Source: Paramacrobiotus metropolitanus (taxonomy: Eukaryota > Tardigrada > Eutardigrada > Parachela > Macrobiotidae). From it: DNA of 64,000 bases. The stretch spans positions 682,001 to 746,000 of the forward strand of contig NW_026570241.1 in NCBI RefSeq assembly GCF_019649055.1, in the 5' to 3' direction. Below the pieces are notes generated by a model. It worked only from the letters and a program-made list of their open reading frames with translations, was not told the DNA's origin and ran no database searches. The position numbers and the translations under genes are program-made. Shown in pieces: positions 582 to 34,677 of the stretch (the first letter of the stretch is position 1; each line of letters opens with the position of its first letter).

Positions 582-2430
582 TTATTCCTTACGCACACGC
601 GTACAGGCGGTCAGCCAGCTGTACAGTTTCTTGGGCGCTTCGCATAGGTGCTTCCATTGGATGCTCTGGACGCCCAGCCTTGCCCCGAAAATGGCCCCAG
701 CCATCGTGGCGATCGTATCCGAATCGCCGCCCATCGAAATCGCGTATAAAATCGCTCGTGCGAAAGGGTTATCAGTCTGAAAAAACAATATACATCTAAA
801 AACTATAATAAATATCAATCGGGGACAACATTCCCTGACTTCGATGCCGGGTACAGATCGTATGGCGTCCAGTGCCTCCATATTAACGGAGTGCTCCATT
901 TTCTCTATCACCTCTTTTTGCGTGACATGAGGGTCATGCAGCAACGCTTTGGCGGTGAGCAGCCGCTCCGTGTATGGTTTTTTCACCTCGCTGCCAACAT
1001 GCAAGCACGTAATTAAACGACAGCAACGAAGCGTACCTATAACGTGAAAACCTGAAAACGTCTGCGAACTCGTTTTCTAGGCGGTCACGTGCAAAGCCGA
1101 TGACGGCATCCAGTAGGGTTCCTCCATCTGGAGAGTCGGGCCGAAGGGCTAGATGAACAGCCAATGCTTGTAGAATTGCTCCGTTGTAACCCAGTGCGTG
1201 GTTGTGCGTCAACAGCGTGCTCAGACGGGCAATCTGAAACAATCGTAAGACGATGATTTCGCCAAGGTGGTCCACCTTAGGGTAAGACCCTATCCACTTT
1301 GATTTCGTTTACGAATACTGTGAAATACGTACCGGTATTCCTGAATTTTAAAAATGCGGAAAAAACTTAATTCTCTAGTATCGATAACACAAGACAGGAA
1401 AAAATCAACCAGCATGCATACTGCGCGTGTATTGTATTTTCCAAAGCTAATACGTAAATTAAAGGTCAAACCTCGACAGTCTCCTTCAGTCGATTTCCAG
1501 AACAGCGGCGCACTGGCAGTCCGCATGCCTCCGCCATTCCCGAACGATCCCTGACCGCCAAACTGCTGCCGGGCCGGTCCAAAAACATCCCCTTCGAAAT
1601 CGATGGCTTGCCAGACGGAGAAAATGTCCGCCACAGTGGCATACATGTGATGTGTGCCCGGTTCGGCGTCATACTTAAAAGCGAACCTGGACAAAAACTC
1701 AGGCATTTTGGCGTCAGTTTTTAGAAAAGGACACGCTTCGAATATATCGTATTTAATTTGGGAAAGACATAGCATACGATTTGGCCATATCGCGCGCGGC
1801 CAGATGTCCACAGTGGATCAGCCATCCTGCCAATGCATTGCCGTATCATCGGTATATGGCAGCGGATATCCTTACAAATGGATTGAAATTAAATGGAAAT
1901 AAAGGACCAATCAATGCAAGCAGAGTTTAAAAAAGAAATAAAAGCGACCATGCTAGAATATAATCGATATAAATCAAATCGGCTACAGATCTGTATATCT
2001 GCCGAAGTTTACACATGCATGTCCCAGCGATTATTCACATGTAGGTAGGACACGCACCGCACACTGACGATATGCATGCTGCATGGCATGCTAACACAAA
2101 TGATGGGAATAAATTTTGATTTTCTTATGAATTGTCAAGATTCTGTTTTGAGTATCTTTTGCAAGAATTTCCGGCACTTGCTCCCGTTATTTTCTTGCTG
2201 GGCTACGCAGCTTACGTTTTCTAGTTCGTTTGTTAATCGCATCTTCGATGGCAGACACGCGTACTGGTGGCGGCGAGTTCTCAAACATCCGTCCCAGACA
2301 GTCGCCAACCAACGCGCCAAGCAGGCATCCCCGCTATTTGGATAGCAGTCTATTTGGACAATGTTTCGCGGCGATCATATTTCTGGCGGCTGCTGCAGTG
2401 GTCCCTGTCGTCAATATCTGACTAAGTGAA
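582..2430 (-). pseudogene. ARH3-like ADP-ribosylhydrolase, copy B (type 2), pseudogene
   Basis: All six exons of an ARH3-type gene can be traced on the minus strand: exon 1 about 2400-2210, exon 2 about 1860-1760, exon 3 about 1680-1470, exon 4 about 1235-1070, exon 5 about 990-836, exon 6 about 778-582. Family words are clear: GCLLGALVGDCLGRMFE, YTDDTAM, GSFGNGGGM, GYNGAILQALAVHLAL and GGDSDTIATMAGAI. Lesions are multiple. The start position reads CTG and the fourth codon after it is TAG (2334-2336). Exon 2 has lost 7 bases. Exon 3 has a 2-base loss near its end. Exon 5 lacks 11 codons in frame. Exon 6 has a 1-base loss that changes the C-terminus. Several independent lesions make assembly error an unlikely explanation. 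ARH3 enzymes remove ADP-ribose from serine and hydrolyse poly-ADP-ribose, but this copy cannot make such an enzyme. Confidence 0.85.
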
Positions 2431-2642
2431 GCACCCATTTTCTAATATACGGTGTTAACTTTGCATCTCATAACCAAATAAGTACTGCAACAATATCCAG
2501 CAGCCGTACGGTACGGTAAGGTACCAGTAAAAGTGACTGAAACGTGATATCGTATCGTACCTACCCGAGCATACGTTGTACAAGTATAAGCACAGAACAA
2601 GCATGCTTGAACTGTCTGTTGCGGTGTTACCTGAGGCAAAAT

Positions 2643-2891
2643 TTGGAACGCGCTTTGGGCTTTGAAACGCTAGGACCAAACGGACCGGAAGCTTCCCGTC
2701 TGCTGACGGAAGTGGGTAGAAGGGTACGGCATGAAACTGGCGAGGCAAGAGCACCGGAATACCTGCGCCAGCGTATCAGCATAGAAATCCAGCGCGGGAA
2801 CGCGGCCTCCGTCCAGGGAACAGCTCCACCGGGAGCAAATTTAGATCAGTTGTTCTCTGTTCTTAGACCTCCCGAGGCTGTTTTCTGCTGA
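2643..2891 (+). mobile_element. Short coding remnant, probably of a mobile element
   Basis: The frame from about 2643 to the stop at 2889-2891 encodes a basic, arginine-rich segment containing GFETLGPNGPEAS, EVGRRV and RQRISIEIQRGNAASVQGT. It reads as a real protein end, unlike neighbouring chance frames. From memory it resembles uncharacterised multicopy proteins of invertebrate and fish genomes that tend to accompany transposons, but I cannot name the family. It starts exactly where homology ends between the upstream region of copy B and the upstream regions of the type 2 relics (GAGGCAAA, then divergence). That suggests insertion into the old promoter region. There is no start codon in context and no partner domain, so it is a fragment. 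Confidence 0.4.
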
Positions 2892-3620
2892 TTGAGTGTA
2901 TTGCGTTGTGATGTTAACTGTTGTGTATAAGCTAAATGTACAAGGATTACAATTTGGAATAGATTCGCATTATTTTTTTGCGGTTTCTGCGTCATTACAC
3001 GGTAATATTTTTCGTTCATTCCCTACATTGTCACATAACATTCGTAGCTTGCGAACGCTGCGAATGTTATGTGACAATGTCAGTACAGTACAGCGATATC
3101 ATTAAATGCCTTGATGCAAAATACAAGGCATGCATTACAAAATTACTGTTAGTGCATAAATGGCACGTACAATATTTATTTTACTGCTCACAATCCGGTC
3201 CTCCCGATCGAATCAGATAAAACTAACAAAAAAGTAGAAAACTTTATTTTGGCAGCTGCTGTACAGTTCTTTCGATGCTGCATGCTAGCAAAATAAGTAA
3301 GCATCATGGATTACCGAATATAGAGCGCAATTTCGTAGTGCAACAGCCAAATATTTTCTCCATCGCGATGTTAAAGCCGAATAAAGCGTCGAGCACATGA
3401 ACTGTAGGTAGCAGAAACATACAAAGGACGACAAAAAGAGGTTGAACCGATCAGTCGGTCCGCGGTTCAAAAGTAACCCCGCAACGACACGCCACCAGTA
3501 AAACTTGGACGCTTTCTCACTTTCTTTGCATGCTACTTTCAGACGCTCGCGCTCCGTGAATATCGAAGTGCAACTATACTAATTGCAAATCAAAAGGTGT
3601 AAAAAAAATTCTTAACTTTC
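2892..3620. other. Gap where exons 5-6 of copy C should lie
   Basis: Between exon 4 of copy C and the remnant at 2643-2891 no trace of ARH3 exons 5 and 6 is visible on the minus strand, so they appear deleted. The stretch contains a perfect 20-bp inverted repeat (3025-3080), annotated separately. Nothing else was recognised. Confidence 0.5.
3025..3080. repeat. Perfect 20-bp inverted repeat with 16-base loop
   Basis: Bases 3025-3044 are exactly complementary in reverse to 3061-3080, and the loop 3045-3060 can itself pair partly (AGC/GCT-like ends). The transcript of either strand would form a stable hairpin. It lies in degenerate DNA between pseudogenes, so it may be the tip of a small palindromic transposon, a recombination scar or a small hairpin RNA. 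Nothing in the sequence separates these. Confidence 0.7.
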
Positions 3621-3621
3621 T

Positions 3622-4940
3622 GATGCTAAACATGTGGCTGTTTATGGCGAACAGCACAAAATCTAAACGGTCACTAGCAAATTTGATGAGAGCATCCAAC
3701 AAAGATTCACCATCTGGAGTGTCGGAATGCAGGGCCAGGTGAACAGCCAACGCCTGTAGAATGGCTCGGTTGTAGCCAAGTGGATGGTTGTGAGTCAACT
3801 GCTTGCTCAGGCGGGCAATCTGAAATAGCCAAAACTACTGACACTAAAGGTCAAACACTATAAAACATTCACGTCGCATGCGTTGATTAGAAATACCGGT
3901 ATATGGTTTTTCCTGAAACAGTATTTGACTCACTACGCTCAATGTCGGCAGAGTAATGCAGTCATCCATAAAACGCAGTGTTCAAAGGCAAACAAGTTTG
4001 TATGATTCAATATGATGATACTGTGTACCGTATATCGCTGCATCCATGAATTTAAGAACTGCATCACATTGCCTTCCAGTACAGTAATCAGAATGCGAAC
4101 CTCTAACGTCTCTTCCAGACGGTTCCCACAAAATAGTGGGATACTGGCGACCCGCATTCCCCACCGTTCCCGAACGATCCCCGACCATTAAACTGCTGTC
4201 GCGCAGGTTCAAAAATATCGCCTCCAAAGTCATTGTCCTCCCAGATGGAAAAGATGTGCTTTACGCTGCTCGCGTACAGGCGCTTCTTGGTCCACTGTGC
4301 TTCATACCTGTCATTGAAACTGCCGAAACGCGACATAAATCCCAACGTTGAAGCGGCGAAAGGAAAAAATACGCTTACGATTTGGCCAGATCGCGAGCGT
4401 CGAAACGTCCGCAACGAATCAACGATTCGGCCAGCGTGTGACACATGGCCCGATGATGGCCGTATCATCCGTGTACGGCAATGGCAATTCTAAAACACTC
4501 TCCCAATACGAAAGAAAAGTATATAATTACCGTGAAAGTGATTAAAGTGAAAGTACCATAGGAATTAAAGTAAACGAAAGTCCGAATATATTTGCACATT
4601 ACCGGTACTCAGTTTCTCTTATATCTACACATAACCATGAACTTTTCAGCTGTTTTTGCCGTGTATCGCTGCAAAATGTGACATCCGGCAGAATACATAA
4701 TTATGATGTGTGCTTTTACGGTTTATTATTTTGTTCGGCAATTGTTGCTACGATCTCCGATACTTTGACCGGCGGTGGATCGCCCTCAAACAACCGTCCC
4801 AGGCAATCTCCAACCAAGGCCCCTAGAAGACAACCACGGTACTTGGACAGCATTCGGTTCTGACATTCCTTCGTCAGTATTGTTGATCCTACAGTGGACG
4901 AGACGGTGACAATTGAAAAGTACTTTCTGGGATGGAGCAT
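3622..4940 (-). pseudogene. ARH3-like ADP-ribosylhydrolase, copy C (type 1), truncated pseudogene
   Basis: Exon 1 (4940 to about 4725) encodes MLSKYRGCLLGALVGDCLG preceded by about 27 residues. Exon 2 (about 4490-4385) carries PYTDDTA but then an 11-base insertion near 4449-4459, a partial duplication around GGCCAT, that shifts the frame into a stop. Exon 3 (about 4340-4095) carries FEPARQQFNGRGSFGNGG and then a 1-base loss near 4160. Exon 4 (3819 to about 3640) carries LTHNHPLGYNRAILQALAV, with Arg replacing the usual Gly of GYNG, and its 3' end has decayed. Exons 5 and 6, which would carry the second metal-binding Asp cluster, are absent. Structure and sequence are closest to copies D and E. 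Confidence 0.85.
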
Positions 4941-5249
4941 GTTGAGGCTGCCTAAAGCAGGACGTGCAGTCGATTAGTTTTTCATTCGCCCACGCTTTCT
5001 TTGAGCCTGATTGATTTCTGCTCGGTGGACTAGCTTACAGATACTGAGATACCGGTACGCAAGTGCAGAATAATCTTGATTATAATATACAATAAATAGC
5101 CATGGAGGACTTCTAGACAGTTTTATAGTTTGCGTCTGTAACTGCGTCTGTAAATTATTTGTAATAGGTACATCGCTCTAACTAGCAAACTGCTTCTAGC
5201 TGTTCTAGGCAAGCACGGTATTTTTGGGATTTCTTTCACAACGCGCTTA

Positions 5250-5465
5250 CATACATCTTCCCGCTTGTTTGTCAACTAGAACCTCGGCGGCGGACAGGAG
5301 CGGTAGCGAATACGCAGACAATCGTCTCGCACTCTCGCCCGCCAAAGCGTCAAACAGACATCCGTGGTGTTTGGGTAGCAGAGTGTTTAATTTGATTTTC
5401 GCTGTGACCGTTTTCATAGCGGCTACACCAGTGGTTCCAATCTTCAATAAAGAAACCGCTCTCAT
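5250..5465 (-). pseudogene. Solitary exon-1 relic of an ARH3-like gene (type 2)
   Basis: The minus-strand frame contains a degraded version of the ARH3 exon-1 block: LLPKHHGCLFDALAGES aligns with MLSKYRGCLLGALVGDC. The upstream text TTGVAAMKT recalls copy B more than C, D or E. No other exon of this copy is visible before copy C begins. A block 260 bp upstream (about 5656-5685, containing ATCCGGATCC) is shared with the same position upstream of the relic at 9.2 kb, so the relic keeps its ancestral promoter flank. Confidence 0.65.
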
Positions 5466-6448
5466 TCAGTTTACGCGTTTAGGGACTGGTGTGGAGAGCG
5501 AACAATTAGGACTAAATAACACGCAGAATTTTCTTTACCGATAAACCTGGATCTCCGGTGAAGCGAGACGCGAAATACCGTGCTTGTACTGTACCGTAAG
5601 TGTACAAACATGCTGTTGCTTTAGTACGGTTACGGCTTGCAATAAAATCGACGTAGCCCAAGGCACATCCGGATCCGTCCTGAATTGATTATTGCGTGGG
5701 TTTTTTGCGTTTGCGTCATATGATGATCATAAATATGTAAGCATACGTAAAAGGTAATCATGAATTATCACATGTAACCGTGACCTATCCATAATTACAT
5801 TTCATTCGAGGATTACGTGTAAACGCACAGCGTAGCGACTTCCTAAAGTTGTTTTGTTTTCCGCAGCAAGTGCTTGTATGACGATTTCATTCTGTCAGCT
5901 GAACACGAATTTTTGCTGGAAATATAGACTCCATCAGACAATAACAGAGATCGATGGAATACTGCACAAGCGAATTCACAAAATAACCAGGGTAAGGTGA
6001 AGATCATTACTAATTGACTGCAGGTGGCCATTGCGGTCAGACCAATAATCCGGTAGTAAGGCTCTGAACGTACTTCGTATACGTGTGTTCCAACGTAACT
6101 TCTGAAAGTATGTACTAGTACCTACTTACAGTTTTTACCAGTTACAAATTTGGTGACGAGTCCTTAGCTTGGCAAGTAAGTAAAAAACTAAGCAAAAAGT
6201 TTTCGTGCCACAATTCTTATTCTGTATCGACGATACAAATAGCCCATGTCGTGGGATTATTAATTTTTGTAAGAAAGCGCATTTTTACATAATAAACACT
6301 GCACTACAACATTTCCAATAGAATATGCACCAGGCACCTTTTCTGTTCTCGATAGCAACTTGGCATAGCAATTCAAGTGACTACAAGTTAATGCCAAGAA
6401 ACATCACGCATGAAACCTTGCCTAGAAAGTAGAAATCATTGCACTGTG
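5466..6448. other. Spacer between relic and copy D, no gene seen
   Basis: Apart from the shared upstream block near 5656-5685 I see no exon, RNA gene or repeat. Short frames on both strands lack coding character. Confidence 0.4.
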
Positions 6449-8389
6449 TTAGTCGATTGTGGTATAAGCACATTCGTGTAAGCGATCAGCTAACTTCAGT
6501 GTTTCCGCTGGCGCTTCACACAAGTCTTCCCACTGGATGTTCTGGACGCCCAGCCACGCCCCGGAAATGGCCCCAGCCATTGTGGCAATCGCTTCTGTGT
6601 CACCGCCCATCGAGATTGCGTACAAAATGGTACGTGCGAAAGGATTATCGGTCTGGAAAAAAGGAACAGTACAGTAGGTCTAAAAACAAAAAAAACAGAA
6701 AAGTAACGGGACTTACTTCAATGCCGGTAATCGGTCGCAGTGCCCGAGCGGCGCAAAAGATAGCCATGGGAATGGCGTCCAGCGCTAACATATTTACGGA
6801 ATGCTCCATTTTCTCTATCACATCTTTTTGCGTAGCGTTCGCGTCATTCAGCAGCATTTTGGCTATGCGCAGGCGATTCGTGTAAAGCTTCTTCCTCTCA
6901 CTGTTAACGTTAACATAAAATATGTGGAAAAACACCCGTTTCCAAACGTAAGACATTTAGGAATATTGACGAACTTGGTTTCTAAACTGTCGCTTGCGAA
7001 GTCGATGAGGGCATCCAGTAAAGATTCACCATCGGGAGTGTCGGAATGCAGGGCCAGGTGCACAGCCAACGCTTGCAGAATGGCTCCGTTGTAACCGAGC
7101 GGATGGTTGTGCGTTAACTGCGTACTGAGCCGGGCAATCTGAAGTACAGAGCCGCAAACTGTGATTATTAAAGGTGAAACATAATAAATGTCGCAGGCAT
7201 CACGTCGCAGGTTAAAAATACCGGTAAACTGTTTTGACACAACAAAATCTGACTCACTACATACGAGTATTTCGACAAAGGTACTGTGCATCAATAAAAC
7301 GCGCGATAATCTGCAGTCATGTGTATGGTGTGATGGTAAAAACGTACCCGTAATAAGCGCATATCACGACACTACTATAACGATGAGAGTACTGACGATG
7401 AATTAATGCAGTACATTAATGCCGAGTCAGAATACGAACCTCTACGGTCTCTTCCCGCCGGTTTCCACAAAACAGAGGGACACTGGCGATCCGTACTCCC
7501 CCGCCGTTGCAAAATGATCCCCGACCGTCAAACTGTTGCCGGGCAGGGGAAAACACATCGCCAGCGAAATGGTTCGCTTGCCAGATGGCAAATATTACCT
7601 TTACGCCGACGGTGTACATGAACTGCTTGGTCCACTCATCTTCATACTTGTCAACAAAACTGCAAAAATTCGAGTATAAGTACCAGGCTACTAGCACCAT
7701 TCAGGAAATTCAGTTTTGTGACAAGGTAAAGTGAATTCACGCTTACGATTTGGCCATATTACGAGCATCGAAGTGTCCGCAACGAATCAGCGATTCGGCG
7801 ATCGCGTGACACATTGCCGTGTCATCCGTGGATGGTAATGAGTGTTCTGAAATCCAGTTGGTAAATGACATGAAGACAAGGAAGTAAACAGTTGAAGTTA
7901 AAGCAAACGTAATTAAAGTAAAGTGCTTCATGCCCATCAGAAAATAAAACTCTAAAAGTACGAATATGTCAACATAACTGCAATCACTTCAACGGTACTT
8001 TACGTGATTATATGCAGGTGTTAAATCGGAAGTGATATAAGTATTGTACATTTTGCTAATGAAACTGCAGCGCAGCAGTTGCATATAGATATGATTGTTA
8101 TAATCAAACTGAACACCGTGTATACACAGTATATAAGCTTTTCTTAAATGAAACGTCCCGTCACCTTACGCTTTTCAGTCGTGTATCGCTAGATTTTCTA
8201 CAGAATTTGACATTCGATAATATACACAAAGATCTGAACGCAAACTAGATCTATTCTATCACCCTTTTGTTTGGCAATTGCTGCTTCTATCTCCGCCACT
8301 TGCAATGGCGGTCGAGCACCTTCAAACATTCGTCCTAGACAATCACCAACCAAGGCCCCCAAAAGGCAGCCGCGGTACTTGGACAGCAT
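6449..8389 (-). CDS. ARH3-like ADP-ribosylhydrolase, copy D, divergent active site
   Basis: Six exons: 8389 to about 8255, about 7839-7747, about 7657-7438, 7138 to about 6973, about 6903-6716, and about 6655-6449 with the stop at 6449-6451. Splice phases match copy E and no frame break was found. Start taken at ATG 8389 (MLSKYRG); the frame is open upstream but has no earlier ATG. The family removes serine-linked ADP-ribose using two Mg ions. Exon 1 keeps FEG with the Glu. The first Asp cluster reads STDDTAM instead of YTDDTAM, and the second reads GGDTEAIA instead of GGDTDTIA, so an Asp and the following Thr of the metal site are replaced. Exon 3 reads GSFCNGGG for GSFGNGGG. The protein may be weakened, repurposed as a binding protein, or an early pseudogene. 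Confidence 0.75.
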
Positions 8390-8519
8390 TCGGTCCTGAC
8401 AATCCTTCTTGGGTATGGCGGCTGATCGTACAGTCGACGACTCGACGACAGTCGCCGGGTGGTATTTTCTGGGAATGATCGTGGTTAGGCTGCCTGAAGC
8501 AATACGGCTGTCAAATGTT

Positions 8520-9094
8520 CATTCGTCTTTTCTTCCGTTTCGATTCTCGTTTGAGGTACTTTGAAAGTTTACAAAATGAAGGCAGCAAAAAATTTAATTC
8601 ATCACCTTGGCGTACGACTTCAAACAACAAAAAACAATTTTTAAGAGTGACCTTTGTAATGTTATTAATCATGATCAACAGTTCATTGACGGAGTAGTTT
8701 CGCTCACCAGCTAATTAAACCAATCAATTTTATGCGTTCTAAAAGGTACCTTTAATCTAAGTACTAGAGTAGCTATAAAAACGAGGTAGTGCGTGTGGGT
8801 TCGCATACCGTACATTAGCTTGCCATAACTAGACCATATTGGAACTGCAATAATTAAATCACACTGATCACAGGTCCACAAAGACCACCTACTGACCATG
8901 CCAAAGAATCCGTTTCCGCTCTTCCTGACACAGGCATTTTTCTTTTTTGCAGCACAGTTATACAGGGTCAAAACTGTACTCAAGGGGTTAGCACCCCTTG
9001 AGTACAGTTTTGACAGGGTAGAACAGCTATAATGTATCAAAGATCTAGCTAAGCAGTATGTATACGCATGAAACTTTTCGAATTTTTTGATCGC
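8520..9094. other. Upstream flank of copy D, with a hairpin
   Basis: No exon recognised. The segment should contain the promoter of copy D, but I see no clear TATA-type element. It contains the 20-bp inverted repeat at 8968-9013. Confidence 0.35.
8963..9019. repeat. Perfect 20-bp inverted repeat flanked by CAGGGT direct repeats
   Basis: Bases 8968-8987 and 8994-9013 are exact inverted copies separated by a 6-base loop. The whole palindrome is bracketed by the 6-base direct repeat CAGGGT at 8963-8968 and 9014-9019, the left copy sharing one base with the stem. A short palindrome between direct repeats looks like a miniature transposon or its footprint with a target duplication, although the unit is far smaller than usual. 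It could also be a stable hairpin RNA. Confidence 0.7.
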
Positions 9095-9400
9095 TTATTC
9101 ATAACGAATTGACGTATAGAAATTGTACGTACGTTTTCTCGTTTGTCTACCCGCCGCAATCCGGGTGACGGACAAGAGCAGCGGCAGTTGCGAATTCTCA
9201 AACATCCGTCCGCGACACCCGCCCGCAACTGCTCTAGATCTATGGAAGCATCCGCGGGATCGGGTTAGCATTGCGTGTGAACGGTTACCGCAACTGACGG
9301 TGCTCATTTTTATGGCAGCTGCACCAGCCGTAATTAGTGCCGGTCTCATAGTCAAAGAAGAACCCATCCCGTTCCGATTAAGTAATGCTAGGTTTATATT
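9095..9400 (-). pseudogene. Solitary exon-1 relic of an ARH3-like gene (type 2)
   Basis: The minus-strand frame holds MLTRSRGCFHRSRAVAGGC followed by GRMFENS, a decayed form of MLSKYRGCLLGALVGDC...GRMFENS. The FENS text is that of copy B (FENSPPP) rather than the FEG of C, D and E, which assigns it to type 2. The next exons are not detectable between here and copy D. Its upstream block at about 9549-9580, with ATCCGGATCC, matches that of the relic at 5.3 kb at nearly the same distance. Confidence 0.65.
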
Positions 9401-10060
9401 ACAGCGTACAGTACGTACAAAAATATTCAGTTAAACCAACATCTATATTCTGTAATTCTACAGAAGTGTATCACACACTCGAGTCGCCAAAGAAGTTAGC
9501 TGTAGTAATTTTTTTAATGATTGCATCAGAGTGATCAGAATAAATGTAACCCGAGGCAAATCCGGATCCATCATGAATTTTTTTTCGATAATGCGTCACA
9601 CTAATTATGCACGGAATTTACTTCCAAAACTAACGCAAACTAAACCACTGACTATCGTATGTGCAAATAATGTACAATTTTAAGAGTGAATAGTGGTTCC
9701 CTTATTCGCACCATCATCATCTGTACTAACCATAAGTATTGCACTATATCATTAAGTACTGCACAGGTATTCTGAGCGTCTTCACTAAAAAACTTAACTC
9801 AAAGATCTACGCAGCATTTCGAAAGCTTTATGGGTTACAATTCAGCCCACGATGTAGAAAGCATCAGTAAAGATCAACAAGGACCTTTTGCGTGTTGTCC
9901 ACTGCACTACAGAATTCCCACAACATTCATTGTTACGAAACGTTAATATGTTGTCGATAGCGGCATCATGGCATGTGAAGTGCTGTACCAAAAAAATTTC
10001 GAGAAACATGACGAATGACACCGTGTAATCGACACGCTGTCGAGGAATCCGTGAATCGCA
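9401..10060. other. Spacer between copy E and the type 2 relic
   Basis: Holds the shared upstream block (about 9549-9580) of the relic and the presumed 3' end of copy E. No other feature recognised. Confidence 0.4.
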
Positions 10061-12135
10061 TTATCCCGTTTTGTTATGAGCACATTCATGTAAGCGATCA
10101 GCCAACTTGAGAGTTTCCTCCGGCGCTTCACAGAAGCTCTCCCACTGGATGCTGTGGACGCCCAGCCATGCCCCGGCAATGGCCCCAGCCATCGTGGCGA
10201 TCGTATCTGTGTCACCGCCCATCGAGATTGCGTAGAGAAGAGTACGTGCGAAAGGATTATCGGTCTGCAAAAAAATTCATAAGAATAAACATAAAATCAA
10301 TAAAAAAAAGTTGGGGACTGACATTAATGCCGGGAATCGGTTGCAGTGCGCGGGCGGCACAGAAGATGGCCATGGGAATGGCGTCCAGCGCCTCCATATT
10401 GACGGAATGCTCCATTTTCTTAATCACCTCGTTCTGCGCAGCGTGGGGGTCCTTCAGCAAGGCTTTGGCTATGGTTAGGCGCTCCGTGTAAGGCTTTCTC
10501 TCCTCACTGTCAAAAAAAAGCATGAAATAACACCAGTCACCAGGTGTACAGCATTTTTCGGAAATATTAAAAAGCGCTACGAACTCCTTTTCTAAACGGT
10601 CTCGTGCGAAGTCGATGAGGGCATCCAGCAGAGATTCCGCATCAGGAGTGTCGGAATGCAGGGCCAGGTGAACAGCCAACGCTTGCAGAATGGCTCCGTT
10701 GTAACCGAGCGGGTGATTGTGCGTTAACTGCGTGCTCAGCCGGGCGATCTAAAATTCCAGCAAAACCATGACTAAAGAATTCAACACAAACTAAGCGCGG
10801 CCATGTCATGTACAAAATTATAAACAAATACATTATTTTCGCATATAAAATATAGATAGATATTGTATATTACTTAGCCCATTGTAAATTTCATTTTCAA
10901 TATATTATTCTCGCATTAAAAGTACTGAAGTTTTACACGAAATGTCAGCAATGTCAAAATGACTAATTAAATATAAATTTCTTATTTTATTGTGAATATA
11001 AATATACTATTTTGCATTAATGTACTGAATAAATGACTATAGAAAATAAATAAATGAAATGAATAATAATACGTAAAATAAGCAGAGAAATAACAGTACT
11101 GTATATGTACGGAATGTCTGGATATTACTCGTAAAATGCCGCATCGTACAGCGAACCTCGACAGTCTTTTCCAGTTGATTTCCACAGAACAGCGGCACAC
11201 TGGCGATCCGCATGCCTCCGCCGTTCCCGAACGATCCCTGACCGTTAAACTGCTTCCGAGCCGGAGCAAAAATATCGCCGGTGAAATTGGTATCCTGCCA
11301 GACGGAGAAGATGATCTTCACGGCAGCGTACATGTGCTTCTTGGTCGGTTCCGCGTCGTACTTGTCAGCGAATCTGCCAAAATCCACAAAATTTCCATCA
11401 GCTCTGAGCTCATACACCCAAAAATTCGGTTTTTACGACAATATATAACTAGGAAAGTGCGGCTTACGATTTGGCCATATCGCGAGCGTCGAAACTTCCG
11501 CTCCGAATCAGCGATGCGGCCAGCGCATGACACATTGCCGTATCGTCCGTGTATGGCAGTGGAAATTCTGAAAAATACGAAATTTAATAAAAAACAGAAA
11601 AAATAAAAATGCGAATATTGTCCGCAAACAAAAATGTCCCTGTTACCAATATTTATTCATGCAGTTACTTTTGCCAGTATAATATGAGAATTTCGGCATC
11701 GGCAATTTGACATTATAAATTTTAAGCGAATATTTATTATTGTTATTATTTATTTAGTTATTAACATGTATTTGTTAGTTTTTATCATTTTTATTACTAT
11801 TGATATAAGGTATTATATTTTTGAAGCGTTCCGCGAATAATTTCAACAACCAGATTACATTACATATCATTTTTGGTAATATATCTATATGGATTCATTC
11901 GCTTCATCCGCTTACTTCTTCCCTTTCGTGCGGCGATTTCTGCTTCGATCTCCGACACCTGCACCGGCGGTCGAGCACCCTCAAACACCCGTCCCAAACA
12001 GTCCCCAACCAGCGCACCCAGCAGACAGCCGCGGTACTGGGACAGCATTTTGTCCTGGCAATCCTTCTCCAGTATTTTCTCGGATCCGACAATCGATGAT
12101 TTGGTAGCCACCGGCTTCTCCGCACGGCTGATCAT
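10061..12135 (-). CDS. ARH3-like ADP-ribosylhydrolase, copy E, apparently intact
   Basis: Six exons with consistent phases: 12135-11916, 11567-11468, 11373-11157, 10748-10585, 10506-10323, 10264-10061. ARH3 (ADPRS) is an all-helical Mg-dependent enzyme that hydrolyses serine-ADP-ribose, poly-ADP-ribose and O-acetyl-ADP-ribose in nucleus and mitochondria. Key parts are present: the first helix block RGCLLGALVGDCLGRVFEG with the metal-site Glu; FPLPYTDDTAM with the Asp pair; FNGQGSFGNGGGMR; HNHPLGYNGAILQALAVHLA; and GGDTDTIATMAGAIAGA with the second Asp cluster. The start is uncertain. ATG 12135 gives about 29 residues before MLSQYRG, ATG 12048 starts at MLSQYRG, and the frame is open to 12273, which could encode a longer leader, perhaps mitochondrial. 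The donors of exons 3 and 4 are the weak form GTTCG. This is the best candidate for the functional gene of the array. Confidence 0.88.
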
Positions 12136-12274
12136 GGCGCCCTTAACTGAAGTATACGGTACTACTCCAACTAAACGTCGAATGGATATGGTCAAAACAA
12201 ATTTACTATACGTAATGAAGTTTTCCGCTGAAGAACCGTCAATGATATCAATCCGCAATAGCCATGATATCATT

Positions 12275-13788
12275 CGTGTTAAGATAAACTGCTAGTCTGA
12301 TCCCTGCCCTGCAACCTTGAACAAATGCGGTGCGATGAGATCATCACCCAAGCTCACTGCTGATTGCCGTACGGTGAACAGGCTTCTGTTTGATGTTTGA
12401 TAAGAACTTCAAAAATCAATCATTGCATATGCTACTGTACGTTACTGAGTAATTGCTTCCTCATCACCGTCTGCACCGTGTGATCAATGATTGCACTCGT
12501 ACAAACACACGTTTAGACGTCATTTTTAGTACGAGTATCTGTATAATTATTAAAAACAGACTGTAGTGAAGATGTACAATCAATTTTTGATTGTAATTCT
12601 GCATCAAACAGAACTCACCATCAGAAGTACACTCTGTACAATGTACACAGTACCTGTGGTGCAATTTGATCGGTCGGCTATAATGCTTATTAATTTTATC
12701 CAGTACAGTACTATTAAAACCTGATTTCTGACATAAAACATAATAATTATTATTGTTTAAGTACATGAAATCATTTTCAGTTACAGTACGCACATGTAAA
12801 TTAATAAAAACATAATCACTGCTGCTACGTTTTGGTATCTACATACACAGATCTGCACATATAATATTTAGTATCTGCACAAATCGTAAGCTATTTGTTT
12901 TGTTCAACGGTGAGAACTGCAGCCGGAAGTGAAAGCCGTATATCAAAAATTAGTAACACTTGCAACGGCTTTATCTGTTTGAAGTTTGCTAGGCGTGTAC
13001 AGTACAATATCACAAACATGACTATGTACAATACAGTATATGCATCCTTTCTCAATTTTAACGAATACCAATTTATTTTTAAATAATTAATACATTTTAA
13101 AAGGGAAGAATGCAAGCAACACGTGTGTAGTACTAGTCAGTACCGCCGGTAAAATCAACGAAATGGCTACGCTGCGTACGCGCACGAGAGTTTATTTTGT
13201 ATTAATTTTGTTTACTTGTTGTAAAAAATAATTTCTTTTGGATTTCATTAGTTTGTTGTAAAAACCGGCATGCGCAAACATTCATAAACTCGTACGCAAA
13301 TATTTATTCATAATTCAGTAGGTTGCCGTCACATTAAAATTAATTAATTAATTAACTGTAATCTCCAACTGCTACATTACCATTCTACACACCGGAGAAT
13401 ATCTTGCTTTCAAAAAGTACCATACAAAATCTTACCAAATACAAACAATTACATGTACAAAACCTTTGAAATTTTACACGCTCAACCCGCAGTAAAACCA
13501 TCTCCAGAATTTTTTTAATAAATAATCGAAGCCAGCCACCAATAAATAATCACATTCGCACGAATGGATTCTTCCCCAACAACACCAGTACCAAAGAAGC
13601 AAACACCAACATCTAAATTTCTAACAATCATCTAAACACCTCACTACGCACGGTAATTCTCCACCACACAAAAACAAATCAATTTCCACACAGAATTTTT
13701 CAAATCAAAAAACACTCCAAAGTAATTTATATACAACAAAAATCCACACCACACATTTTCGCTCCTCCTCCAGAAGCACACTCCATCC
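12275..13788. other. AT-rich intergenic region
   Basis: This lies between the 5' end of copy E and the 3' end of the next minus-strand gene. It is AT-rich with scattered GTAC-containing words and no exon that I recognise. It should contain the promoter of copy E and the 3' UTR of the small membrane protein. No RNA gene or long repeat was seen. Confidence 0.4.
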
Positions 13789-31458: not shown

Positions 31459-32312
31459 GTGGGTGGAAAATGCAGATTGCCGAAGGAGGCTTACATTGTG
31501 GAAGAGAATCTACTACACGTTAACGGAAAGAAGTGCCAAGCGATGTATATATGTTCTGATCGAAACACACAACCGGACCCAGAAGTCGTTATCAATGGAT
31601 GGGTTGTCAACATTTCAAATTGTGTCCGGTATCTCGGCGTTGAGATTGATAACCACTTGAAGTGGAGCGACCAGTTCAGAAAGGTACAACGGAAAGGGAA
31701 TTTTGGCATTGCCATGATTAAGCGAGCACAACAAGGGCTCAGCATGTCACAGCGCAAAGGTCTTTATCACGCCTGCTTTGGTTGCCATATCGCACACCAG
31801 TCGCCGGTATGGTCTGCAGCGTCTTCGACTGAGCGCGACAAGCTAGCCGGACTGCAACGTAAAGCTCTGAAAACCATCACCGATTACAAGATGCCGGTTA
31901 CTCCGGAACTGTTTAGGAAGTTGGGTATTCTTCACATATTCGACCAATGGCGTCAGAGCGATGCGGTGTGGCTTTTCAAGATCTGGAACAAAGATCAATT
32001 CCCGCTTCCGGTCTATCTTCTGGATATGGTCCAAGTAAAAGATAACACCATGAGCTATAACCTGCGGAAGCCGGCACGGATCGAGGTTGCACGGGCAAAG
32101 AGAGTAATCGGAGAGAAGACTTTGGAAATGCGTATAAGGCGTCTTTTCGATAAAATTCTTGCTGTTAACTCTAAAATTTCAATGCCAGTTCTGTACCTGC
32201 CTTTAAATTTCTACTCAAATCTGTGGATCTGTCTTAGTTCTTTACTTGTATTTAAAATTGTTTTTTGTTCGACCAGACTTGAAGTCCCCTTGGGGTTGTC
32301 TGCTCTTGTGCC

Positions 32313-32347
<35 letters not shown>
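31459..32347 (+). mobile_element. 5'-truncated non-LTR retrotransposon (RT C-terminal part) with (TAA)n tail
   Basis: The open frame 31459-32316 encodes the region after the reverse-transcriptase palm: VRYLGVEIDNHLKWSDQF is the usual thumb-side block of CR1/jockey-type elements. It is followed by KALKTITDYKMPVTPELFRK and the typical end SYNLRKPARIEVARAK. The fingers and palm with the catalytic FADD-type motif and the endonuclease are missing, so this is a dead 5'-truncated insertion, the normal outcome of target-primed reverse transcription. The frame runs through what is probably 3' UTR (GTCCCCTTGGGGTTGTCTGC, a common sort of LINE end) and its stop lies in the first repeat of a (TAA)n tail, 32314-32346. 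The frame is undamaged, suggesting recent insertion. Confidence 0.85.
32313..32347 (+). repeat. (TAA)n microsatellite, retrotransposon 3' tail
   Basis: About eleven uninterrupted TAA units directly follow the retrotransposon 3' end. Such simple tails are made at reverse-transcription initiation in several LINE clades and are the expected 3' boundary of the insertion. Confidence 0.9.
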
Positions 32348-33057: not shown

Positions 33058-34677
33058 CCAGATCTTTTTGAAACTTTGCTGTAAAAGACACATAACCATA
33101 AAGTCAAAAGTGAGGCTAGGTATGTACCTAATACTCACGATCATATATAACGGTCCTCATACTCATAATCCTACTCCTAATTCAAAAATCATACTCATAT
33201 TTGCTCTCATAATCATAATCATACTTTCATCCTACCGGTCATCATACTTTTGTTCAGTTCATAATCATAGCTCATACCTCTGCCATTACGCATACTGCTC
33301 ACTAGCGTGTCAAAAATATTATTTGTACAGTACTAGCATATTTACTATATTCGATCAAAGCCACGATAGTCTACTCAATCGTCTACTTGTAAAAATTATT
33401 TCATCCGAAATTGAAGCAGAAAATCACTTTATCAGAAAATGACTGCACTACAAAATGAATTCAGTAAACTTAAACTGGATAATGAAAGCGAAATGATAAA
33501 AAACGGCCAATGTCAAAACGACAGCGGATTTTTCTGCCGGCGGAAATTTTGTGTGGTCAAAATGGCGGCGGAATTTTCAATTTTGTATGGTAAAAACGCT
33601 GGCGGAAATTCTCGTAGTCAAAATGCCGGCGGAATTTCCTGAACATGCATTTTTTTACGGAAATCACGAATTGATACGAAACCGGCTAATTGGTAAACTT
33701 ATTGGTACAATAAACTGACAATGGCTTTTTACCGGTTTCCATTGCTTGTTCTAGCTTGCTGGTTGAAATCTGCGGAATCGGAAGAAAGGCAACATTCAAA
33801 TGCTGTTGATCAGTAGCGTTGCGATCGCTTTTGGCCGATGGAAGTACTTCCAGCATCATCTCCATTGCGGCTTGCCAGTTCGCAAGCTAGCTCAAGGAAT
33901 GGAAACCGGTAAAAAGCCATTGTCAGTTTATTGTACCAATAAGTTTACCAATTAGCCGGTTTCGTATCAATTCGTGATTTCCGTAAAAAAATGCATGTTC
34001 AGGAAATTCCGCCGGCATTTTGACCACACAAAATTTCCGTCAGCAGAATTCTGCCGTCGTTTTGACATAGACCCGCAAAAACTGAGAATACGGACTGAGT
34101 ACAAAAACATACCATTGTCCACTTTCGTCCATTTTTTAAACTGGTGTAAGTTGAAACGATACATGATACAAATATCTGAAAACCATGTAACTGGGCTGAC
34201 TACACAGATTCCAGCTGACTATATGTTAGCGAAAGGTCGCGGTTAGCAACATCAAGCAAGAGAGGAAGCCGTAGAGTTAACACAGACTTTTACTTTATTA
34301 ATAATTACGGTATTTATCAAGAAATATAATGCATCTACACTGGTATGAGTAGTGGCAAAGGTATGAATTATGGTTATGAACAAAAGTATGATGACCGGTA
34401 GGACGAAAGTATGATTATGATCATGAGAGCCGATATGAAGGTGAAATCTGAATTAGGAGTAGGATTATGAGTATGAGGACCGTTACGAGAATTAGGTACA
34501 TACCTAGCCCAAAAGTGAACCAATATCAGATCAACAGCATTTTTTTCCGATTTTAAATGAATTTCAAAAATTTTAAAATTCATTTTAAAATTATGGGAAA
34601 GTGCTATGAACCTGAAATTGGTTCACTTTCGACTTTATTGCCATGTGTCTTTTGCAGCAAAGTTTAAAGAAGATCGC
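33058..34677. mobile_element. 1.6-kb foldback (long imperfect palindrome) element
   Basis: The two halves are inverted copies. Outer parts pair: 33058-33120 with about 34615-34677 (both with AAAGACACAT). The ATAAT/CATACT-rich segment about 33110-33270 pairs with about 34370-34510. Inner parts pair almost perfectly: about 33620-33755 with 33895-34025. The middle of each arm (about 33300-33500 and 34080-34330) has diverged, and about 100 bp near 34520-34615 is present only on the right. The central loop is about 130 bp. No transposase frame is present. This is the architecture of foldback transposons or of an inverted duplication of a smaller element. Short-range CGGCGGAA-type repeats near 33510-33640 add length to the left arm. 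Confidence 0.75.
33620..34025. repeat. Inner inverted repeat, near-perfect arms of about 130 bp
   Basis: Left arm about 33620-33755 and right arm about 33895-34025 run without visible mismatch over more than 110 bases, including CATGCATTTTTTTACGG and AAACCGGCTAATTGG. The loop between them has short complementary CTAGCTTGC-type words. The near identity against more diverged outer arms indicates that the core duplicated or converted later. Confidence 0.8.

Follow-up and report, generated by a model that had tools for sequence, protein, structure and literature searches.

The 64,000-nucleotide stretch of Paramacrobiotus metropolitanus DNA analyzed here (assembly GCF_019649055.1, contig NW_026570241.1, positions 682,001–746,000; the window) was found to carry, on its minus strand from window position 12135 to 582, four head-to-tail genes similar to the ADP-ribosylhydrolase gene ARH3 (copies E, D, and C of type 1 and copy B of type 2) and two lone copies of a type 2 exon 1 (relics A and B). 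The array is a tandem birth-and-death family of ARH3 genes, a kind of family that is already known and that comprises head-to-tail copies, recombinant copies, chimeras, pseudogenes, and lone exons. Copy D shows C-like homology on its 5′ side and E-like homology on its 3′ side and has evolved under constraint, C and B are broken, and both relics group with copy B. The history that we favor, and to which we give an even chance, is that of a birth-and-death cluster in which a type 2 copy was truncated, one unequal exchange made D a chimera, the metal site of D changed, and C and B decayed. Tandem gene decay is in itself ordinary; the points of interest are a candidate ARH3 pseudoenzyme and two well-kept lone exons, which unlike those of typical birth-and-death families keep open frames and splice donors.

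Organization of the array

The order on the minus strand (E, relic A, D, relic B, C, and B; Table 1) is the arrangement that a first-pass annotation of the sequence had proposed, and the distance of about 0.7–1.2 kb that it gave between each type 1 gene and the following type 2 copy or relic agrees with the spacings found: 694 bases from the end of E to the ATG of relic A, 984 from D to relic B, and about 1,224 from the last match to C exon 4 to the ATG of copy B. The motifs by which it had separated the types held in part, FEG being present in E, D, and C and FENS in copy B and relic A, with relic B reading SAYS at this place. The type 2 leader, described as different, is so only through divergence (KHCPNRLLSK before RGC in copy B compared to KECQNRMLSKY in C). 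The predicted self-alignment at about 4 kb was present at shorter offsets (3.6–3.7 kb for E/D, 3.3–3.5 kb for D/C, and 2.5–2.6 kb for C/B), giving a period of about 3.6 kb. In a tblastn search of the window with E, every match outside the array had an E-value of 1 or worse, and no type 2 exon was found upstream of E (z 0.6 compared to relic A and 2.2 compared to exon 1 of copy B).

Copy E was similar to ARH3 chains (phmmer, up to 6e-71), contained a whole ADP_ribosyl_GH domain (PF03747 at 3e-54, 185 bits), and aligned across this domain with ARH3/ADPRS (45% identity to human; PDB 6g1p, "ADP-ribosylhydrolase like 2"). ARH3-type proteins were the 11 best of the 21 PDB rows matched by E, ARH3 being its nearest solved relative, and two NCBIfam matches were far under their cut-offs (54.3 compared to 490 bits and 53.6 compared to 337 bits). 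The metal residues are kept, E retaining E41, T76, D77, D78, S148, H182, D314, D316, and T317, and these residues point to a hydrolase that uses two magnesium ions to take ADP-ribose off proteins, which would be the ancestral function. Compared to human ARH3, several tandem copies are present here, Y149 is replaced by F in all four copies, and the RGYGAG stretch around G115 is unmatched. Among open-licence papers, no report of an ARH3 tandem array was found by title or start of the abstract. The frame of E is open upstream of its ATG and includes an additional in-frame ATG (12136–12291, minus strand), and in all three type 1 copies (E, D, and C) an AG precedes the position of the start codon by 11 nt.

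Copy C contains an 11-base insertion in exon 2 and has lost one base in exon 3, and its exons 5–6 were undetectable in the following 1.2 kb (best z 1.3 in three comparisons). Copy B contains a stop in exon 1 and lacks 7, 2, 33, and 1 bases in exons 2, 3, 5, and 6, respectively. The ratio of nonsynonymous to synonymous divergence (dN/dS) was low for the six copy pairs (0.16–0.27; 0.22 for C and 0.24 for B compared to E), which indicates that C and B were constrained most of their time; both are pseudogenes after a long constrained history. A plus-strand open frame of ~94 codons between them (2610–2890), suspected to be a mobile-element piece that replaced exons 5–6 of C, was rejected as it had no Pfam match and no second copy in the window.

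Uneven homology along copy D and the history of the array

Flanks and introns were compared by local alignment, with z calculated from 300 shuffles for each comparison; these scores replaced a global intron alignment that was uninformative, shuffled identities being equally high. D showed homology to C in the 5′ flank (z 8.0), intron 1 (z 4.6), and intron 3 (z 19.3), regions in which E and D were at chance level (z 0.4, 0.5, and 1.3, respectively), and homology to E in intron 4 (z 4.1) and the 3′ flank (z 15.1). Signals were weak in intron 5 (z 1.7 for E/D) and intron 2 (z 2.1 for both D/C and E/D). Synonymous divergence (dS) between E and D fell from 0.93 (0.61–1.58) in exons 1–3 to 0.36 (0.24–0.52) in exons 4–6 (bootstrap 0.9995), and the D-C value for exon 4 was above the E-D value for exons 4–6 in 0.98 of bootstraps. 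In exon 4, E and D differed by 10.4%, compared to 18.3% for E-C and 17.7% for D-C, and the exon-1 tree placed D with C (bootstrap 87/89). This pattern suggests a mosaic junction between intron 3 and exon 4 of D, and recombination among type 1 genes near this point in which one truncated type 2 exon may have been copied along.

The relics aligned with exon 1 of copy B at z 27.1 (relic A) and 29.6 (relic B; 60 shuffles each) and grouped with it in the unrooted exon-1 tree (bootstrap 100), with C, D, and E together on one side of a 100% split, both as the first-pass annotation had expected; three trees in which relics were instead placed with their adjacent type 1 gene were all rejected by the approximately unbiased (AU) test (3e-64 to 2e-76). 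The best tree joined the two relics as sisters (ultrafast bootstrap 93, standard bootstrap 99), which favors one copied truncation over separate losses, and they share an upstream block (z 6.4). In protein trees rooted with human ARH3 and 6g1p, ingroup bootstraps were 32–81, a value of 100 being obtained only for human ARH3 paired with 6g1p; we therefore claim no root, including one that would place copy B outside C, D, and E.

In the favored history, duplication into type 1 and type 2 would have come first, and one type 2 copy would then have been reduced to its first exon. Later, two type 1 genes would have recombined unequally at a point close to intron 3 and exon 4. This exchange would have added a unit of ~3.6 kb, duplicated the truncated exon to give relics A and B, and left D chimeric, its 5′ half resembling C and its 3′ half resembling E. 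D would have been retained as a coding gene, its metal site changing afterwards (D316E and T317A), and C and B would have turned into pseudogenes.

We infer a single exchange, and several observations count against this history. The branch sum between the two relics (0.68) is larger than the E-D dS in exons 4–6 (0.36), so a single event fits untidily, and the spacers after the two relics showed no homology to each other in local alignments compared to shuffles. D-C dS in exons 1–3 (0.69) was not clearly below that of E-C (0.74; bootstrap 0.59), and since C lacks exons 5–6 and the 3′ flank, the E-like half of D can be compared to C only in exon 4. Three other arrangements of the type 2 sequences were not rejected (AU about 0.11), and the sites common to both relics against copy B (29) were not more numerous than those of the other pairings (34 and 39), so the pairing of the relics may be due to long-branch attraction.

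The main rival, which we consider rather unlikely, is simple tandem duplication followed by gene conversion of E sequence into the 3′ half of D, together with an exchange between E and B in exons 2–3. The lower E-D dS compared to the divergence of the relics would fit such conversion, and so would the unusual closeness of E and B in exons 2–3 (dS 0.59 compared to 2.11 for D-B; exon contrast permutation p 0.00055), from which exchange among the array copies probably happened more than once. Yet the E/D homology continues through the 3′ flank, as expected of a copied unit; the ends of a conversion tract cannot be mapped because the 3′ side of C is gone.

The first-pass annotation had proposed that a complete pair of type 1 and type 2 genes was triplicated and that exons 2–6 of type 2 were lost separately each time. 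The grouping of the relics with copy B, that of C, D, and E together, the self-alignment, and the presence of type 2 sequence after each type 1 copy all agree with that reading; separate relic lineages are compatible with the AU test, the spacers after the relics are unlike, and open relic frames would suit a late loss. A single affinity along each unit was, however, not found, within the limits set by the loss of the 3′ side of C: the sharing of 5′ sequence by D and C and the drop of E-D dS in exons 4–6 are not predicted by plain triplication. Besides, the relic spacers contained no significant trace of type 2 exons 2–6 (best z 2.7 and 1.7, with 7 and 24 of 300 shuffles as high), and amino-acid drift between the relics (dN/dS, or omega, 1.32; 0.76–2.37) was unlike that of copy B exon 1 compared to E (0.27). 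We therefore regard triplication as improbable and retain the single unequal exchange as the preferred reading.

Constraint and active site of copy D

E had been described as the only copy that looks fully intact and the array as largely decayed. The second statement is correct for C and B, which are broken; D is not decayed, having six open exons, GT-AG boundaries at each of its five introns, and low dN/dS. A TAG at codon 7 of D was an alignment artefact in the leader, the frame of D itself being open there.

In a three-taxon codon model with the leader excluded, omega of the D branch was 0.21 with E and B (omega of 1 rejected, p 1.9e-9; 314 codons), 0.14 for exons 1–3 (p 8e-10), and, with E and C over exons 1–4, 0.25 (p 2.6e-4). 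Neutral evolution of D exons 4–6 was simulated at the local frameshift rate of 0.18 per substitution (41 of 48 gap events in 769 aligned non-coding columns). A fully neutral branch was frame-clean in 0 of 3,000 runs, and the clean fraction was 0.005, 0.023, and 0.165 when 30, 20, and 10% of the branch was neutral; at a rate of 0.05 the corresponding fractions were 0.002 (full), 0.118, 0.220, and 0.469. The codon fits and the simulation together show that D was kept open for most of its life. Three results weigh on the other side: the ATG of E aligns with an ACG at 8482 in D, so the start codon of E and C is absent (the next in-frame ATG, at 8389, gives 332 aa); omega of D in exons 4–6 was 0.39 and not below 1 (p 0.07); and in the fit with D and B, omega of E itself was 0.70 on a short branch (p 0.56 compared to 1), compared to 0.19 (p 2e-6) in the fit with D and C. 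D may thus have been released from constraint late.

D carries the substitutions D316E, T317A, G150C, and Y75S and retains E41, T76, D77, D78, S148, H182, and D314. At 316 and 317, where D and T would be expected of an active ARH3 and are present in human ARH3 and 6g1p, copy D has E and A. Eight distant prokaryote relatives (22–30% identity) were included only as a motif control; GGDxxx was matched in two, both as GGDTDT, and the other six had no match. Among the binding residues, E41, D77, S148, and H182 are kept, Y149 is F as in E, and G115 is not alignable. At positions where E is identical to human ARH3, D has changed in 19 of 143, compared to 58 of 190 elsewhere (p 0.0002). Human ARH3 T317A is described as keeping the binding of mono-ADP-ribose and losing demodification (PMC5727137), and D316 is described as coordinating both magnesium ions, with D316A impaired (PMC8141533). 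Judged from these substitutions and the human mutant data, D may read ADP-ribose instead of erasing it. Its product probably binds ADP-ribose but does not hydrolyse it, or else the gene is at the start of its decay. D is of note as a long-constrained ARH3 paralogue bearing the change that in human ARH3 separates binding from hydrolysis.

That D is a fresh pseudogene, open by chance, is a serious possibility, although we place it below an even chance. The ACG start, the two metal-site changes, and the omega of exons 4–6 would all be expected of it, and with 0.05 frameshifts per substitution the clean frame is compatible with a branch that was neutral for 30% of its length. At the local rate, neutrality over 30 or 20% of the branch rarely leaves the frame clean, and splice sites and frame are intact.

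A comparable case is ARH2/ADPRHL1, a vertebrate pseudoenzyme of the ARH family with changed metal motifs, for which no activity is reported so far (PMC9738213; PMC7390403; PMC10601310); ARH2 is 47% identical to ARH1 and ARH3 22% identical to ARH1 (PMC9738213). D resembles ARH2 as an ARH paralogue with an altered metal motif, but it is a local copy of ARH3 and its change is smaller (DT to EA).

The lone first exons and other features of the window

Relic A (235 nt) and relic B (211 nt) both run from ATG to a phase-1 GT donor without a stop. With the branch lengths of the exon-1 tree, both stayed open in 0.05–0.08% of neutral runs; among 60,000 neutral runs, both were open with ATG and GT in none at full divergence, 23 at half, and 221 at a quarter. 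That these first exons keep their frame while their protein sequence drifts is a point worth following, and the relics could be in use, or once have been in use, as 5′ exons. A specific form of this idea, that each relic supplies, or did so until a short time ago, the start codon of the type 1 gene below it by being spliced to exon 1 or 2 of that gene, is doubtful. The open frames with ATG and donor, rarely kept in neutral runs, agree with it, as do the lack of an E-type ATG in D and the in-frame junction that relic A can form with D exon 1 or D exon 2. The test was, however, suggested by the data themselves, frames of at least 60 codons likewise follow 3 of the 110 ATGs in non-coding DNA nearby, and the acceptor candidates above exon 1 were unremarkable, with scores no better than those of 16% (D), 82% (C), and 11% (E) of 256 AG sites taken as background; moreover, D has its own ATG at 8389 and C is a pseudogene. 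The combined proposal, that D is a natural ADP-ribose reader without hydrolase activity, assembled from the halves of two paralogous ARH3 genes, and that relic A, as the first exon of a dead paralogue, was co-opted as its start-codon exon, appears very unlikely.

Table 1. Coordinates of the ARH3-like copies, relics, and homologous segments of D in the window.
Feature	Position	Strand	Description
Copy E	10061..12135	minus	Six-exon ARH3 gene, intact, 362 aa; exons 11916-12135, 11468-11567, 11157-11373, 10585-10748, 10323-10506, 10061-10264; all introns GT-AG
Relic A	9133..9367	minus	Single type 2 exon 1, open from ATG to phase-1 GT donor
Copy D	6449..8482	minus	Six open exons, all GT-AG; exons (ACG 8482) to 8263, 7747-7846, 7440-7659, 6975-7138, 6717-6900, 6449-6652
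D intron 3	7139..7439	minus	Homologous to C intron 3 (z 19.3; E, z 1.3)
D 3′ flank	6181..6420	minus	Homologous to E 3′ flank 9786-10025 (z 15.1); no C counterpart
Relic B	5255..5465	minus	Single type 2 exon 1, open from ATG to phase-1 GT donor
Copy C	3662..4940	minus	Exons 1-4 only, frameshifts in exons 2 and 3, pseudogene
Copy B	582..2438	minus	Type 2 gene, six recognisable exons, multiple lesions, pseudogene

A scan for viral contigs gave no match. The window contains split genes, and the domains detected outside the array include LysM, TLDc, anthrone oxygenase, histone deacetylase, and a WD40 match under the Pfam cut-off. Two foldback hairpins lie within the span of the array, at 8957–9024 (32-nt arms, 88% complementary, ACAGGGT on both sides) and at 3025–3080 (24-nt arms, 96% complementary), and look like small mobile-element insertions. 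A plus-strand stop-to-stop frame of 285 codons (31459–32316) had no Pfam match and, judged by eye, is similar to the terminal part of a reverse transcriptase from a retrotransposon, and a 146-nt inverted repeat at 33614–34027 (97% complementary, 122 nt between the arms) is possibly a small DNA transposon.

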